A stretch of DNA of 64,000 bases from Brumimicrobium glaciale (GTDB lineage: Bacteria; Bacteroidota; Bacteroidia; Flavobacteriales_D; Crocinitomicaceae): contig NZ_SETE01000002.1 in NCBI RefSeq assembly GCF_004152935.1, positions 248,001 through 312,000 on the forward strand, written 5' to 3'. The notes below the pieces were generated by a model, which had not been told where the DNA came from, did no database searches, and saw only the letters and a list, made by a program, of their open reading frames with translations. Positions 36,652 through 40,244 of the stretch are shown here, piece by piece (the first letter of the stretch is position 1; every line of letters starts with the position of its first letter). The position numbers and the translations under genes were made by a program.

Positions 36652-36861
36652 ATGGATTTACAAGAAGTAAAAATACCGAAATGGAAAAACAAAGAAGAGT
36701 TGTTCAAAAAACAAACTTTTGACGCTGCACTTAAAGAATTGGGTGAAAATGGGTCTTTTATTAACCCAAAGGAGGTGGAGAAACAATTAAAGTCCCCTAC
36801 TCAATCTTCTGAAACGGAAACAGAGGTAGAAACAGCATCTAAGCCATGCACTGCGGAATAA
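36652..36861 (+). CDS. Small hypothetical hydrophilic protein
   Basis: A 69-residue charged protein (MDLQEVKIPKWKNKEELFKK at the start) with a Ser/Thr/Glu-rich tail ending PCTAE. No signal peptide or membrane segment is present. It resembles short Bacteroidota proteins of unknown role and may be real because it has a plain ATG, lies after a terminator, and is followed directly by a period-7 repeat array. I cannot assign a function. Confidence 0.5.
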   Translation: MDLQEVKIPKWKNKEELFKKQTFDAALKELGENGSFINPKEVEKQLKSPTQSSETETEVETASKPCTAE

Positions 36862-36864
36862 AGT

Positions 36865-36899
36865 AATTGATAATTCACAATTGATAATTGACAATTGTG
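36865..36899. repeat. Period-7 AATTNNN array (left flank of the kdsC relic)
   Basis: Five heptamers in register: AATTGAT, AATTCAC, AATTGAT, AATTGAC, AATTGTG. It bounds the decayed gene copy on the left, with a partly complementary array at 37154-37181 on its right. Confidence 0.75.
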
Positions 36900-36934
36900 T
36901 TTTACATTCCATATAGAAAATACAGCATAAAAAT

Positions 36935-37150
36935 AGACACTCCTGTCTAATCTTAAAGCATCGAAGTCATCTCCGATAAGTCAAATTTCAAATAAATCAA
37001 TATCTAGCTTTTTAGATTAATCTTTTACACTATAAATTTGGAATGTTTTATTTTGTTATCGTCAAACATAAACATGTTCAATTCAATAGTCCTTCCCCTG
37101 ATTGTACAATTTGAATCCATAAAAGATAATCCTAACATCATTACCAGTTT
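36935..37150 (-). pseudogene. Decayed partial copy of the adjacent KdsC-family phosphatase gene
   Basis: The stretch aligns collinearly with kdsC bases 37320-37525, same orientation. Matching blocks include TCATCTCCGATAA (versus TCGTCTCCGATAA), AAATCAATATCTAGCTTTTT (versus AAATCAATATTTAGCTTTTT), AACATAAACATGTTCAATT (versus AACATAAAGATGTTCAATT) and CAATTTGAATCCATA (versus TAATTTGAATCCAGA). It corresponds to about residues 110-172 of the phosphatase (from GIISSG to GDDIND) and has no open frame. It is bounded on both sides by heptamer arrays, so a duplication between repeats followed by decay is the likely origin. Confidence 0.75.
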
Positions 37151-37153
37151 ATT

Positions 37154-37181
37154 AATTATCAATTGTTAATTGTTAATTCAA
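37154..37181. repeat. Period-7 AATTNNN array overlapping the phosphatase stop codon
   Basis: AATTATC, AATTGTT, AATTGTT, AATTCAA in register. The last unit contains the stop codon (complement of 37178-37180) of the KdsC-family gene. Confidence 0.75.
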
Positions 37182-37849
37182 CCCAGTGGCTCGTCTAATA
37201 AATAGTTATCGATAAATTCACGTACACAACCACGACCACCTTTGCTATTCAAAACAAGATCGACTTGTGCTTTTACTACTGGCACAGCATCTGAAGGCGC
37301 AGCAGAGAAACCAACACTTTTCATCACTTGCAAATCGTTGATATCGTCTCCGATAATTCCAACTTCCGACAAATCAATATTTAGCTTTTTGCACCAGCCG
37401 TTTAGAATGTCAATTTTAGGATCTCTTCCAACATAAAGATGTTCAATTTTCAATAGTTCTGCTCTAGCTTTTACCATTTGTAATTTGAATCCAGAGGAAA
37501 TAATTCCTACCTCAACACCAGACTTTTTCAGGGCCATTATTGCCATTCCGTCTTTGGCGTTGTACTTTTTGATTTGGTCGCCATTCTCAGTAAAAAACAT
37601 TCCAGCATCCGTCATCACTCCATCGACATCTAAAATCAATAATTTGATTTTCTTTGCTTTTTGAGGATCAACTGTCATGTTGTATGACAAAAGATTGACG
37701 AAATCTAGATCATTTCGGTAACAGAAAAGCTCAAGTGTGCCTAAAGTTAAATCTTCAACTTTAGACACCTTGTTCTCTTTTAAATATTGTTCTAAACTGC
37801 TTTTGTTTTTAACTAAAACAGCTTCGATATTTGCGTTTAATAATTTCAT
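37178..37849 (-). CDS. KdsC-family HAD phosphatase with N-terminal extension
   Basis: A 223-residue protein whose C-terminal 155 residues are a KdsC-type (C0 cap-less, tetrameric) HAD phosphatase: LILDVDGVMTD with nucleophile D74 and D76, IISSG at 117-120, K145 in GRDPKID, GDDINDL with D168 and D169, and the KdsC-typical tail GGRGCVRE. KdsC removes the phosphate from Kdo-8-phosphate; relatives act on KDN-9-phosphate. Residues 1-67 (containing VEDLTLGTLELFCYRNDLDF) are not part of KdsC, which is usually about 170 residues. It abuts the DAHP-synthase-like gene upstream, sharing a base (TAATG), and is the third gene of the unit. Confidence 0.88.
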   Translation of the reverse strand: MKLLNANIEAVLVKNKSSLEQYLKENKVSKVEDLTLGTLELFCYRNDLDFVNLLSYNMTVDPQKAKKIKLLILDVDGVMTDAGMFFTENGDQIKKYNAKDGMAIMALKKSGVEVGIISSGFKLQMVKARAELLKIEHLYVGRDPKIDILNGWCKKLNIDLSEVGIIGDDINDLQVMKSVGFSAAPSDAVPVVKAQVDLVLNSKGGRGCVREFIDNYLLDEPLG

Positions 37850-38847
37850 TATACGATTTTATACCCAACACTATTTGCAACAGGTTCGATTGCTGATTTC
37901 ATCGCTCTAAATTGATCATGAGTTAATTGCTGCGCTGCATCAGACTTCGCTACAGAAGGATCTGGATGCGCTTCTATAATTAATCCGTCAATTCCCATTG
38001 CTACACAAGCTTTGGCTAATTTTTCAACTCCGTAACGGTAACCCAATGCATGACTAGGATCCAAAACGATGGGTAAGTTTGTGTATTCTTGTAAATAAGC
38101 TACTCCACAAAGGTCAAGCGTAAATCTTGTTTTCGTTTCGAAAGTTCTAATTCCACGTTCACATAAAATAACTTGGTCGTTCCCTCCTGCTAAAATAAAC
38201 TCAGCTGCCTGAACGAATTCCTGAAGTGTAGAACCAAATCCACGTTTTAATAAAACTGGTTTGTTAATTTTAGCACAAGCACGTAAAATCCCTTGATCGT
38301 ACATTGCTTTTGCTCCAATTTGAATAATATCACTGTGTTCAATCACTTCATCAACATGAGTAGCATCTCTTACTTCTGTAATAACGCTTAATCCGTGTTC
38401 TTTTCGCATTTGAGCTAACAATTTCAACCCTTCCAAGCCTAAACCTTGGAAACTATAAGGCGAAGTTCTTGGTTTGTAGCATCCACCACGCAAAGTTGTT
38501 AATCCTAAAGATTTGATCAATTGAGCACTTTCTTGAATTTGCTCTAAAGACTCTACAGAACAAGGTCCACCAATTAGAATCGTGTTTTTTGAATTTCCAC
38601 CAATTGTTAAATCACCGATTTTTACCTCACGTGTTTCTTTTTGGAATTCACGAGAAGCCAATTGCATATCATTTGCGAATACCCAATTTTGATCAACCTT
38701 ACCTTCTAAAGCTGCTGGAACTTCTTTAACAGAAGAAGAAGTAATCAAATGTTCACTTCCCTTGTAAGAAATGTGAAACGCTTTGTGCTGTTCTGCTAAT
38801 TTTGCAGCTTCCGCACTATGAACCGATGTATTTAGTTTTAAAATCAT
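37849..38847 (-). CDS. DAHP synthase / Kdo8P synthase family enzyme (3-deoxy-7-phosphoheptulonate synthase type)
   Basis: A 332-residue PEP-dependent aldolase-type synthase. An N-terminal ferredoxin-like domain (about 1-70) as in type I-beta DAHP synthases precedes the TIM barrel. Metal ligands match the Thermotoga enzyme: C96 (GGPCSVES), H266 (DPSHALG), E292 (IEAHPDP) and D303. KPRTSPYSFQGLG at 125-137 fits erythrose-4-phosphate users rather than Kdo8P synthase. However the usual GARNMQN is replaced by GAKAMYD (178-184), so substrate choice may differ. Its start overlaps the RPE-CBS gene by four bases. It may be the shikimate entry enzyme, or serve a sugar-acid pathway with its neighbours. 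Confidence 0.87.
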   Translation of the reverse strand: MILKLNTSVHSAEAAKLAEQHKAFHISYKGSEHLITSSSVKEVPAALEGKVDQNWVFANDMQLASREFQKETREVKIGDLTIGGNSKNTILIGGPCSVESLEQIQESAQLIKSLGLTTLRGGCYKPRTSPYSFQGLGLEGLKLLAQMRKEHGLSVITEVRDATHVDEVIEHSDIIQIGAKAMYDQGILRACAKINKPVLLKRGFGSTLQEFVQAAEFILAGGNDQVILCERGIRTFETKTRFTLDLCGVAYLQEYTNLPIVLDPSHALGYRYGVEKLAKACVAMGIDGLIIEAHPDPSVAKSDAAQQLTHDQFRAMKSAIEPVANSVGYKIV

Positions 38848-39845
38848 ATTTCTCCTTTAATTAAGTTTATAAAGGTAACAATACCTTTTGCTTTATTATT
38901 ATTGTCAATCACGGGCATATACATTACCGGATAGCTTTGCTTTCTTACCATCAATAGCATTTCATCTACGTTTGCCTCTGCATCAATCGTAATTGGATTA
39001 CTGTTGATCATTTCTTTAACATGCAATCCTGGAATATCTTCAAAGTTTTTAATCAATGCTTTTCTAACATCGGCATTTGAGATAATTCCTTCGAAATCTC
39101 CATTCTTTTCAACTAAAGTGAATCCTTGTTTCCCACTGTCAATGGCTTCTAAAACTTGCTTGAAAGTCATAGTTCCAAAATCAACAGTTGGACACTCTTC
39201 AATTGGAATCATGAAATCTTTAATCATAAACCTAGATTCGATTGCACGCTTCGTTAAATCCATCAATGCATGACCAACGCTTGCTCCTTTAAACAGAAAG
39301 CTTCCAGAAACTGAGGAATGAACTCCCATGTTTCTTAATATAAATGATACTTCACCATTTACTCCACCATCAACGTGAACGTTTTTACTTGGATATTTCT
39401 TTTTGAAAGCTCTGATTTTTCTAAAGTTCTCAGGGTCGAAAACTCCACCGCTTTGTCCAGGAATTGTTGCCATAAACAATACAAAGTCAAATGAACTGTA
39501 TTCGTCAAAAGCGGTAACTGGCGTTGGAGTGATTAATGCTAAGCCTTTTTCTCCTGTGATATCCGCTGGAATTTCTAATTTCTCTGATAATTGCTCATAC
39601 TGAAACGTAACATATTCGACTGGATGTTTTCTCAATAAGTCAAAATACTTTTCTGGTGTTTCTGTGATAATGTGCAAATCAATTGGCATATCGCACCAAG
39701 TTCTAATCTTTGCTATATCATCAAAAACACGGACATCATCGTTACAATCAACATGAAGTAAATCAACTTGATGTGCTTCAAGATCGAGGATAGTTTCCTT
39801 GAGTGTTCTATTTTTATCAGAGTATATTGATCCTGAAATTTTCAT
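38844..39845 (-). CDS. Ribulose-phosphate 3-epimerase-like barrel fused to a CBS-domain pair
   Basis: A 333-residue fusion. Residues 1-200 follow ribulose-5-phosphate 3-epimerase: MKISGSIYSD, HVDCND with metal ligands H31 and D33, DLHII with H58, the loop IPGQSGGVFDP, HVDGGVN with D159, and VSGSFLFKG binding phosphate. All four epimerase metal or catalytic positions are kept. Residues 205-333 are two CBS domains (GIISNADVRKAL in the first; ITIDAEANVDEML and PVIDNNNKAKGIV in the second) closely resembling the CBS pair of KdsD arabinose-5-phosphate isomerase. The fold is therefore a KdsD-like architecture with an RPE barrel in place of SIS. It is the first gene of the unit with the synthase and phosphatase. 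Confidence 0.88.
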   Translation of the reverse strand: MKISGSIYSDKNRTLKETILDLEAHQVDLLHVDCNDDVRVFDDIAKIRTWCDMPIDLHIITETPEKYFDLLRKHPVEYVTFQYEQLSEKLEIPADITGEKGLALITPTPVTAFDEYSSFDFVLFMATIPGQSGGVFDPENFRKIRAFKKKYPSKNVHVDGGVNGEVSFILRNMGVHSSVSGSFLFKGASVGHALMDLTKRAIESRFMIKDFMIPIEECPTVDFGTMTFKQVLEAIDSGKQGFTLVEKNGDFEGIISNADVRKALIKNFEDIPGLHVKEMINSNPITIDAEANVDEMLLMVRKQSYPVMYMPVIDNNNKAKGIVTFINLIKGEI

Positions 39846-39849
39846 ATAA

Positions 39850-40230
39850 TTATCTTTTTAATATTGGTCGAAAAGTATTGTCGGTAATCATTATCTCCAC
39901 GTCTTCGTGAAAGATTTCCTTTTTCAACGCTCTTTCTAATTCTTGTAACATTGCTTCCTCATTAATTGTAAATGAATCTGAATGATACATTTCGCGTTCA
40001 ATAAGTTTTATGACTACTGTTTTCTCTTCTCGTTCCAATTGAATTATTTGTTTCTCTTCCCCTAGAAAACCATTGTTTCTCCAGTATTTAGAAAATTCAA
40101 TGGCTTTTTCTTTATTTATTCCTTCCAAAAAATAAACACTTAAATTTCCGTTATCGATTCGGTCTCCCATCGATATTCCACAGCCTTGAAAAAGTAAAGC
40201 AACCAAGAATATAACAATCCAATTTCTCAT
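39850..40230 (-). CDS. Hypothetical lipoprotein
   Basis: A 126-residue lipoprotein from the second ATG (40230), with the lipobox ALLFQGC (Cys17). The first ATG at 40239 overlaps a TATTTTTG box, so the second is preferred. The mature part is charged and mixed alpha/beta (INKEKAIEFSKYWRNNGFLG, KKEIFHEDVEIMITDN). I do not recognise the family. The gene is five bases upstream of the RPE-CBS gene on the same strand, so it is probably the first gene of the same transcript. Confidence 0.72.
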   Translation of the reverse strand: MRNWIVIFLVALLFQGCGISMGDRIDNGNLSVYFLEGINKEKAIEFSKYWRNNGFLGEEKQIIQLEREEKTVVIKLIEREMYHSDSFTINEEAMLQELERALKKEIFHEDVEIMITDNTFRPILKR

Positions 40231-40236
40231 GATGTT

Positions 40237-40244
40237 CAAAAATA
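40237..40244 (-). promoter_or_regulatory. -7 box (TATTTTTG) for the lipoprotein/RPE-CBS/synthase/phosphatase unit
   Basis: Minus-strand TATTTTTG ends six bases before the ATG at 40230; probable promoter of the whole four-gene unit. Confidence 0.45.

Follow-up and report, generated by a model that had tools for sequence, protein, structure and literature searches.

Kdo, the acidic sugar that anchors outer-membrane lipopolysaccharide, is made by what is generally regarded as a fixed Gram-negative pathway, and one of its enzymes, KdsA, is regarded as a drug target. The E. coli-type set KdsD-KdsA-KdsC consists of a CBS-bearing sugar-phosphate enzyme, a PEP-condensing synthase and a phosphatase. 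The window analysed here, a stretch of 64,000 nucleotides from Brumimicrobium glaciale, contains a three-gene unit with a counterpart of each (Table 1), and KdsB and WaaA are encoded in the same genome. However, the CBS-bearing protein has a ribulose-phosphate epimerase (RPE)-like enzyme instead of a SIS domain, and the synthase (SYN) is of the DAHP synthase type I-beta and not KdsA. We found no description of this RPE-CBS/SYN/KdsC unit in open-access literature text.

Organisation of the three-gene unit

Table 1. Features of the unit, in window positions.
Feature	Position	Strand	Models matched
RPE-CBS fusion, 333 aa	38844-39845	-	PF00834 + PF00571
SYN (DAHP-synthase-like), 332 aa	37849-38847	-	PF00793, TIGR01361, NF006421
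KdsC-type HAD phosphatase, 223 aa	37178-37849	-	TIGR01670
RPE-CBS/SYN stop/start overlap, 4 bases	38844-38847	-	
SYN/KdsC-like gene overlap, 1 base	37849	-	

The ORF coordinates agree with the two overlaps that had been described in a sequence-only reading of this DNA, and the longer one suggests translational coupling of RPE-CBS and SYN. The three genes were closely collinear in 32 of the 36 loci of relatives and in 72 of 80 named loci (kept from a larger scan and at least 59% identical); at loci with both genes, RPE-CBS and SYN follow one another without a gap in 31/35 and 73/77 cases, respectively. KdsC was not found next to the RPE-CBS and SYN pair in L287, L300 and L301, and four of the 13 class loci were scored in the gene-order count as lacking RPE, probably as a result of the bit threshold used. 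The unit is found across many marine and freshwater bacteria; a scan of 84,980 gave 416 relatives at a loose cut-off, among which there may be ordinary Rpe. The KdsC-like protein scores 153.3 bits with TIGR01670 (cut-off 106.95) in a match that starts at residue 68, and it has an additional N-terminal segment of ~62 residues.

The epimerase-like fusion and the synthase

RPE-CBS consists of an RPE-like TIM barrel (residues ~1-200) and a CBS pair (~205-333), and its AlphaFold model (pLDDT 88) is matched by Foldseek to RPE and, in the CBS part, to 4o9k. It has in common with ribulose-phosphate 3-epimerase the barrel and the metal/catalytic residues H31, D33, H58 and D159, which had already been recognised as kept; they are invariant in 129/129 RPE-CBS rows and present in 11/11 housekeeping Rpe sequences. 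It differs from Rpe in the added CBS pair and in a set of substitutions (N35 and I60 for M, Q82 for H, PGQSGG for PGFGGQ and H157 for E) at positions that, by RPE structures, we take to line the substrate pocket, and with the rpe equivalog TIGR01163 it reaches 68.7 bits, below the cut-off of 212.6. No SIS domain was detected by Pfam. Both by sequence (E = 1.8e-10) and by fold, the best solved match of the CBS pair is 4o9k, the CBS pair of a putative arabinose-5-phosphate isomerase. Among NCBIfam models the kpsF match is modest (E = 5.5e-6, tied with that of the c-di-AMP protein CbpB, 5.2e-6) and covers residues 208-323 only, at 26.2 bits versus a cut-off of 203.7. Two proteins of family f15 that were scanned have the RPE domain and no CBS match.

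The solved structures nearest to SYN are type I-beta DAHP synthases, that of Pyrococcus furiosus among them. With these enzymes (Thermotoga maritima, 1rzm; P. furiosus, 1zco) SYN shares the fold, the C/H/E/D metal ligands (C96, H266, E292 and D303, invariant in our alignments) and the KPRTSPYSF loop, and its N-terminal domain can be aligned to the Thermotoga enzyme; the KdsA motif QIPAFLCRQTD is absent. SYN passes the cut-offs of TIGR01361 (327.4 bits versus 267.75) and NF006421 and falls below that of the KdsA model TIGR01362 (119.7 versus 314), and since the DAHP synthase models accept it, it is probably misnamed in annotations. What sets it apart from the type I-beta enzymes is R160 in place of M160, its gene order with RPE-CBS, its own group in the tree, and GAKAMYD in place of GARN.QN. 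The last of these, first pointed out in the sequence-only reading, is real: the trp-side DAHP synthase of B. glaciale itself has GARNAQN, and K180, Y183 and D184 are each conserved in at least 93% of 126 SYN rows. The motif alignment kept 127 rows and the row from the window after removal of rows that were shorter than 315 residues, late-starting or duplicated, and the group counts leave out L090 and L307.

In a rebuilt tree, made with fewer rows and subject to a warning about long branches meeting, SYN forms a group of its own, apart from seven Bacteroidia DAHP synthases and from KdsA. A very long DAHP synthase-chorismate mutase row was left out of this tree; because of that one row, SYN had been a single group in only 23% of bootstraps in the first tree, from which seven intended rows were also missing. 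One paper on the P. furiosus type I-beta enzyme reportedly bears a title beginning 'Substrate ambiguity'.

Distribution relative to KdsA, KdsD, KdsB and WaaA

In the B. glaciale genome, which is 99.98% complete, neither KdsA over the cut-off nor a SIS-type KdsD was detected, and both KdsB (TIGR00466 equivalog, 232 versus 155.2 bits) and WaaA (PF04413) were found. A canonical housekeeping Rpe is encoded separately. Nor is SYN the only DAHP synthase-like protein, as there are three PF00793 genes, and the two others, the trp-side enzyme and a protein of 358 residues, resemble aromatic-pathway DAHP synthases. On these points (kdsD and kdsA, the number of DAHP synthases, a separate Rpe) the sequence-only reading had made its proposal depend, and none of them speaks against it.

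Among 59 relatives, tallied by hand from the rows, RPE-CBS is present at full length in 37 and KdsA over the cut-off in 18, and no genome has both. A KdsD search of the same 59 genomes gave kpsF matches of at least 150 bits that covered the SIS part in 0/37 genomes with RPE-CBS and in 18/22 without it. PF02348 was found in 36 of the 37 (as a fragment in G054; absent from G011) and PF04413 likewise in 36 (absent from G030). The sample of 395 Bacteroidia divides in the same manner: RPE-CBS was found in 82, all without detected KdsA, KdsA (E < 1e-50) in 288, both in none and neither in 25. No KdsA over the cut-off was detected in 48 genomes taken from the 80 named loci, including that of Marivirga sericea, which belongs to another order. 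It is unlikely that KdsA was overlooked through assembly gaps, given the completeness of the B. glaciale genome and counts of 0/82, 0/37 and 0/48. A tree-based test of the exclusion on the KdsB tree, which offered two independent pairs only, was not significant (median p 0.5). Both states, RPE-CBS and KdsA, occur within each of 13 families (f3, f10, f17, f23, f28, f32, f35, f39, f40, f45, f49, f57 and f73) and within each of four genera (g57, g61, g64 and g86), and the swap therefore happened repeatedly.

A protein of the SYN group coexists with KdsA and SIS-KdsD in two genomes, G055, with the order kdsD-kdsA-kdsB-SYN, and G044, where it is part of a SYN-KdsC arrangement. Both proteins place among the other SYN rows, on branches of 1.45 and 0.74, respectively, versus a median of 0.33. 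They could be leftovers after re-acquisition of KdsA; given these two cases, SYN may also have a role besides Kdo-8-phosphate synthesis.

The models for KdsB (PF02348) and WaaA (PF04413) each match 57 of the 59 relatives. Our comparison drew on KdsB from 42 of these 57 and on WaaA from 21, and a separating column was defined as one at least 80% uniform inside each group and differing between the groups. For KdsB, with a KdsA group that included G040 and G050, where KdsA was not detected, four of 240 columns separate the groups (24, 103, 141 and 208), three through I/L/V exchanges and the fourth through Y/F versus E. For WaaA, one of 404 columns does so. These group-specific columns gave no sign of an altered sugar, and the likeness of KdsB and WaaA in the two groups points to the same product, Kdo, made by unrelated enzymes. 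Within family f3, the KdsB of the RPE+ genome G048 groups with those of the KdsA+ genomes G037 and G055. The stretch ETPNID was considered as RPE-specific in this comparison and rejected, as ETPNVD occurs in the KdsA+ L252 and the stretch is absent from G048 (L241).

A proposed route to Kdo and its alternatives

The unit probably takes the place of KdsD and KdsA as a non-orthologous replacement, with Kdo still the product. RPE-CBS would supply D-arabinose-5-phosphate through the metal-bound enediolate chemistry of the RPE barrel, either from ribulose-5-phosphate by C1-C2 isomerisation or from ribose-5-phosphate by C2 epimerisation, and its CBS pair would probably read CMP-Kdo as a feedback signal. 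SYN, as a divergent type I-beta DAHP synthase, would then condense arabinose-5-phosphate with PEP to Kdo-8-phosphate, from which the KdsC-type phosphatase would produce Kdo, to be activated by KdsB and transferred to lipid A by WaaA, both encoded elsewhere in the genome. Gene order, retained catalytic residues, the lack of detected KdsA and KdsD, the mutual exclusion with KdsA and the similar KdsB and WaaA are observations; we infer the reactions, substrates, CBS ligand and product. Formation of arabinose-5-phosphate fits the exclusion between RPE-CBS and KdsD among the 59 relatives. Against the replacement stand the two genomes in which SYN accompanies KdsA, the 25 of 395 with neither system, the DAHP-synthase-type loop that SYN retains and the modest CBS match to KdsD. 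If true, the replacement would correct the annotation of many genomes, close a pathway gap and offer a natural test of how unrelated folds come to share one reaction step and one feedback domain.

The sequence-only reading was right that the unit mirrors KdsD-KdsA-KdsC, but its different sugar acid is not our first choice, given how alike KdsB and WaaA are. Kdo would in that case give way to another 3-deoxy-ulosonic acid, either a stereoisomer or an analogue with seven carbons. RPE-CBS would epimerise erythrose-4-phosphate, ribose-5-phosphate or another sugar phosphate, SYN would add PEP, and KdsB and WaaA would be tolerant enough to handle the product. Such a scheme would fit GAKAMYD and the conserved R160 of SYN, which are unlike both DAHP synthase and KdsA, as well as the residues that RPE-CBS conserves as its own (N35, I60, Q82, PGQSGG and H157). 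We nevertheless think it unlikely: few KdsB and WaaA positions set the groups apart, in one family the KdsB of an RPE+ genome falls together with those of KdsA+ genomes, and repeated swaps inside families and genera would be easier with an unchanged product. The presence of SYN alongside KdsA in G055 and G044 could instead mean that SYN acts in making another, linked ulosonic acid or in regulation, and that the true replacement of KdsA lies elsewhere and co-occurs with it; with SYN directly after RPE-CBS in most loci, and the two other PF00793 proteins of its own genome aromatic-pathway-like, this appears improbable.

An ordinary neighbourhood of shikimate and Kdo genes, the alternative offered in the sequence-only reading, would mean that SYN is a DAHP synthase of the shikimate pathway, that RPE-CBS is a housekeeping epimerase under regulation and that KdsC is there as a bystander, in line with family models that name a DAHP synthase and, below the cut-off, a ribulose-phosphate epimerase. 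We reject such a coincidence as very improbable, as the canonical Rpe, the trp-side DAHP synthase and the 358-residue DAHP synthase are all separate and the gene order is conserved; moreover, it gives no reason for the mutual exclusion with KdsA.

A second fusion lends support to the proposed replacement of KdsD and KdsA. Two genomes that have KdsA and no SIS-KdsD, G037 and G039, encode a fructose-6-phosphate-aldolase (FSA/TalC) barrel fused to a KdsD-like CBS pair, whose kpsF matches have E-values of 4e-19 and 5.4e-15. As in RPE-CBS, the CBS pair is carried by another catalytic fold where SIS-KdsD is lacking, but here the enzyme is an aldolase, not an isomerase, and is paired with an ordinary KdsA. 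FsaA has been used as an 'arabinose 5-phosphate aldolase' on glycolaldehyde and glyceraldehyde-3-phosphate (PMC9947464). Taken together with the fusions in G037 and G039, this use suggests that the CBS pair accompanies whichever enzyme could supply arabinose-5-phosphate. More tentatively, Kdo synthesis in Bacteroidota may be modular, with a CMP-Kdo-reading CBS pair placed on three unrelated folds that supply arabinose-5-phosphate (SIS, RPE-like and FSA-like) and the condensing enzyme repeatedly replaced by a re-purposed DAHP synthase through swaps of the whole unit. The FSA/CBS gene follows kdsA in G039, and in G050, of the same family, the fusion was seen by its CBS end.

Kdo genes in the host genome and its relatives

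The families assigned by the sequence-only reading to the three genes, which encode an RPE-barrel/CBS fusion (RPE-CBS), a DAHP-synthase-like enzyme with GAKAMYD (SYN) and a KdsC-like HAD phosphatase, are borne out for all three by family models, and the genes overlap by 4 bases and then by 1 base. The host genome (4.27 Mb, 99.98% complete; the window lies on contig C2) has an additional housekeeping Rpe on C4, found with PF00834, and three PF00793 matches: SYN, a 336-aa synthase that carries GARNAQN and whose adjoining frames read as trpA and trpB from their translations, and a synthase of 358 aa that, read from its translation, would end in a chorismate mutase. No KdsA was found in this genome above the cut-off, and no KdsD above that of the kpsF model for the textbook arabinose-5-phosphate (A5P) isomerase (SIS-KdsD); kpsF matches below the cut-off lay in the CBS region of RPE-CBS, in that of a 490-aa IMPDH-like frame, and over 51 positions of a 202-aa frame. 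KdsB exceeds its TIGR00466 cut-off (232 vs 155.2 bits), and WaaA matches PF04413 at 139.5 bits, yet is under all five WaaA equivalog cut-offs. Because KdsB and WaaA were matched and neither KdsA nor KdsD rose over its cut-off, the end of the Kdo pathway is present here and its known beginning is missing.

Full-length RPE-CBS occurs in 37 of 59 relatives (36 of the host's own family, f1, and 23 from other families of the order), namely in 35 f1 genomes, G048 and G054; in G029, where the gene abuts a contig end, the match starts from residue 20, and the f1 genome G024 (79% complete) is without RPE-CBS and still has SYN (L308). KdsA is above cut-off in 18 of the 59, all without RPE-CBS, and G045 has a KdsA fragment at a contig start (303 bits). 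Matches to kpsF of at least 150 bits are found in none of the 37 RPE-CBS genomes as against 18 of the 22 others. PF02348, which also catches NeuA-like proteins and whose match in G054 is a fragment, is present in 57 of 59, as is PF04413. Across 395 sampled Bacteroidia genomes, the identical set for both searches (E <=1e-30 for RPE-CBS, <1e-50 for KdsA), 82 have RPE-CBS, 288 have KdsA (279 above the curated cut-off), none has both and 25, many of them incomplete, have neither. Both types occur within families (f17, f23, f28, f32, f35, f39, f40, f45, f49, f57 and f73 in the class set; f3 and f10 among the relatives) and within genera (g57, g61, g64 and g86); no fewer than 13 switches between RPE-CBS and KdsA are required, provided that the groups are natural ones. 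The one tree-corrected test of the exclusion comprised 2 pairs and gave no significance. Genomes were also searched for 48 of 80 named loci (RPE-CBS at least 59% identical), and none has KdsA above cut-off, including Marivirga sericea; this species belongs to another order, yet its RPE-CBS shares 72% identity with that of the window, and the gene was thus probably acquired by transfer. The nearest named relatives of RPE-CBS are from Brumimicrobium oceani (92%), B. aurantiacum (89%), an uncultured Brumimicrobium (86%) and B. salinarum (81%), which makes a host within the Crocinitomicaceae probable.

Gene order and the core proteins

The genes for RPE, SYN and KdsC lie close in line in 32 of 36 loci from relatives; SYN lies farther off in two others (765 bases in L081, 11.4 kb in L113), and the contig ends after RPE in one and before KdsC in one. 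They are in line in 72 of the 80 named loci, the rest comprising four that end before KdsC, one scored apart (L133, whose SYN match misses the N-terminal part) and three without SYN in reach (L126, L149 and L145, the last covering the stretch that L113 also represents). RPE-CBS and SYN adjoin without a gap in 31/35 relatives' loci, 73/77 named loci and 4/9 class loci. As KdsC was not found adjoining the pair in L287, L300 and L301, the steadiest core is RPE-CBS with SYN. Family f15 (L283-L285) has an RPE barrel, then SYN, then a KdsC-type gene, and the two RPE proteins scanned (L283, L285) gave no CBS match; a kinase-like frame, presumably resembling HldE/RfaE, lies nearby on the opposite strand. 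Among the papers listed by searches confined to open-access text, we found no description of the unit.

In RPE-CBS, H31, D33, H58 and D159 are invariant (129/129 rows). Compared with 11 housekeeping Rpe proteins, N35 replaces M (N in 120/129), I60 M, T61 I (T in 115/129), Q82 H, T127 V, H157 E (H in 125/129) and S180 A (S in 127/129), and PGFGGQ becomes PGQSGG at 131-134 (Q131 in 109/129). The acid-base residues are thus retained and their neighbours altered, a pattern expected if the substrate or the reaction is new. In the AlphaFold model (pLDDT 88, with low values at 129-132) the barrel matches RPE structures, and the first CBS match, by fold and by sequence, is 4o9k, the CBS pair of a putative arabinose-5-P isomerase, which we take to contain CMP-Kdo.

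SYN retains four metal-ligand positions and the KPRTSPYSF loop, R160, K180, Y183 and D184 are each shared by 93% or more of its 126 rows, and the structures nearest its model (pLDDT 89) are type I-beta DAHP synthases. In a 36-row tree the SYN rows all lie to one side of a branch with SH-aLRT 95, away from 7 Bacteroidia DAHP synthases, and they are also away from KdsA (100); the program warns of long branches coming together in this region. An earlier tree that included one very long row needed two changes for SYN.

Possible A5P suppliers and the likely product of the unit

Inspection of KdsA-containing genomes without SIS-KdsD revealed a third fold. In G039, kdsA is followed by a frame with PF00923 (transaldolase/fructose-6-phosphate aldolase, FSA) and PF00571, then by a HAD frame; in G037, which is one contig of 3.98 Mb, such an FSA-CBS fusion lies distant from kdsA, and G050, of G039's family, has the CBS end at a contig end and no detected KdsA. 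The CBS pairs of the two complete fusions match kpsF at 4e-19 and 5.4e-15. PMC9947464 describes FsaA as serving as an A5P aldolase with glycolaldehyde and glyceraldehyde-3-phosphate as substrates. FSA-CBS is a possible third source of A5P. A possible supplier is then found in 58 of 59 genomes (RPE-CBS 37, SIS 18, FSA-CBS 3, this last number counting G050 by its CBS end only and coming from a search of part of the 59); this tally, FSA-CBS included, is the strongest hint that RPE-CBS forms A5P.

On balance, we consider the best reading, and a fairly probable one, to be that RPE-CBS and SYN are a non-orthologous replacement of KdsD and KdsA. Against it counts the coexistence of SYN with KdsA in two genomes, G055, with kdsD, kdsA, kdsB and SYN in one row, and G044, with SYN-KdsC plus KdsD and KdsA on contig C23. 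Their SYN rows sit among other SYN rows, on longer branches, 1.45 and 0.74 against a median of 0.33, and may be remnants after a return of KdsD-KdsA or the sign of a further SYN role.

It is unlikely, in our view, that the unit makes another ulosonic acid. KdsB of 21 RPE-CBS genomes differs consistently from that of 21 others, two of them without detected KdsA, at 4 of 240 columns, three being I/L/V exchanges, and WaaA (11 vs 10) at 1 of 404; since most RPE-CBS rows are from one family, these columns may reflect kinship. Within f3, KdsB of the RPE-CBS genome G048 groups with that of the KdsA-containing G037 and G055. These comparisons of KdsB and WaaA favour an identical product in both groups, and a tolerant KdsB accepting a different product is conceivable.

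The phosphatase and flanking frames

Features of the unit and of loci in relatives
Feature	Position	Strand	Remark
RPE-CBS	38844-39845	minus	333 aa
SYN	37849-38847	minus	332 aa
KdsC-like	37178-37849	minus	223 aa
N-terminal extension of KdsC-like	37664-37849	minus	
Counterpart in G044	L315:4579-5250	minus	
Decayed second copy of KdsC-like 3' part	36860-37177	minus	3' of KdsC-like gene
Small frame	39850-40239	minus	129 aa; ends 4 bases ahead of RPE-CBS
kdsD-kdsA-kdsB-SYN (G055)	L090:4968-8113		
SYN-KdsC (G044)	L315:4579-6247		
FSA-CBS fusion	L329:3965-4978	minus	directly after kdsA
FSA-CBS fusion	L331:2977-3987	minus	
FSA-CBS, CBS end only	L332:3578-3994	minus	contig end

The small frame, lipoprotein-like by eye, was without a match in family-model scans. 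The N-terminal extension of the KdsC-like protein has a counterpart in G044 with a weak Cro/C1-type helix-turn-helix match (PF01381, 23.1 bits), a match that the window's protein does not show. A domain once used for DNA binding or dimerisation, and since decayed, may be present in the phosphatase. The degraded KdsC-like copy gives a local score of 60, as against at most 20 in 200 shuffles.
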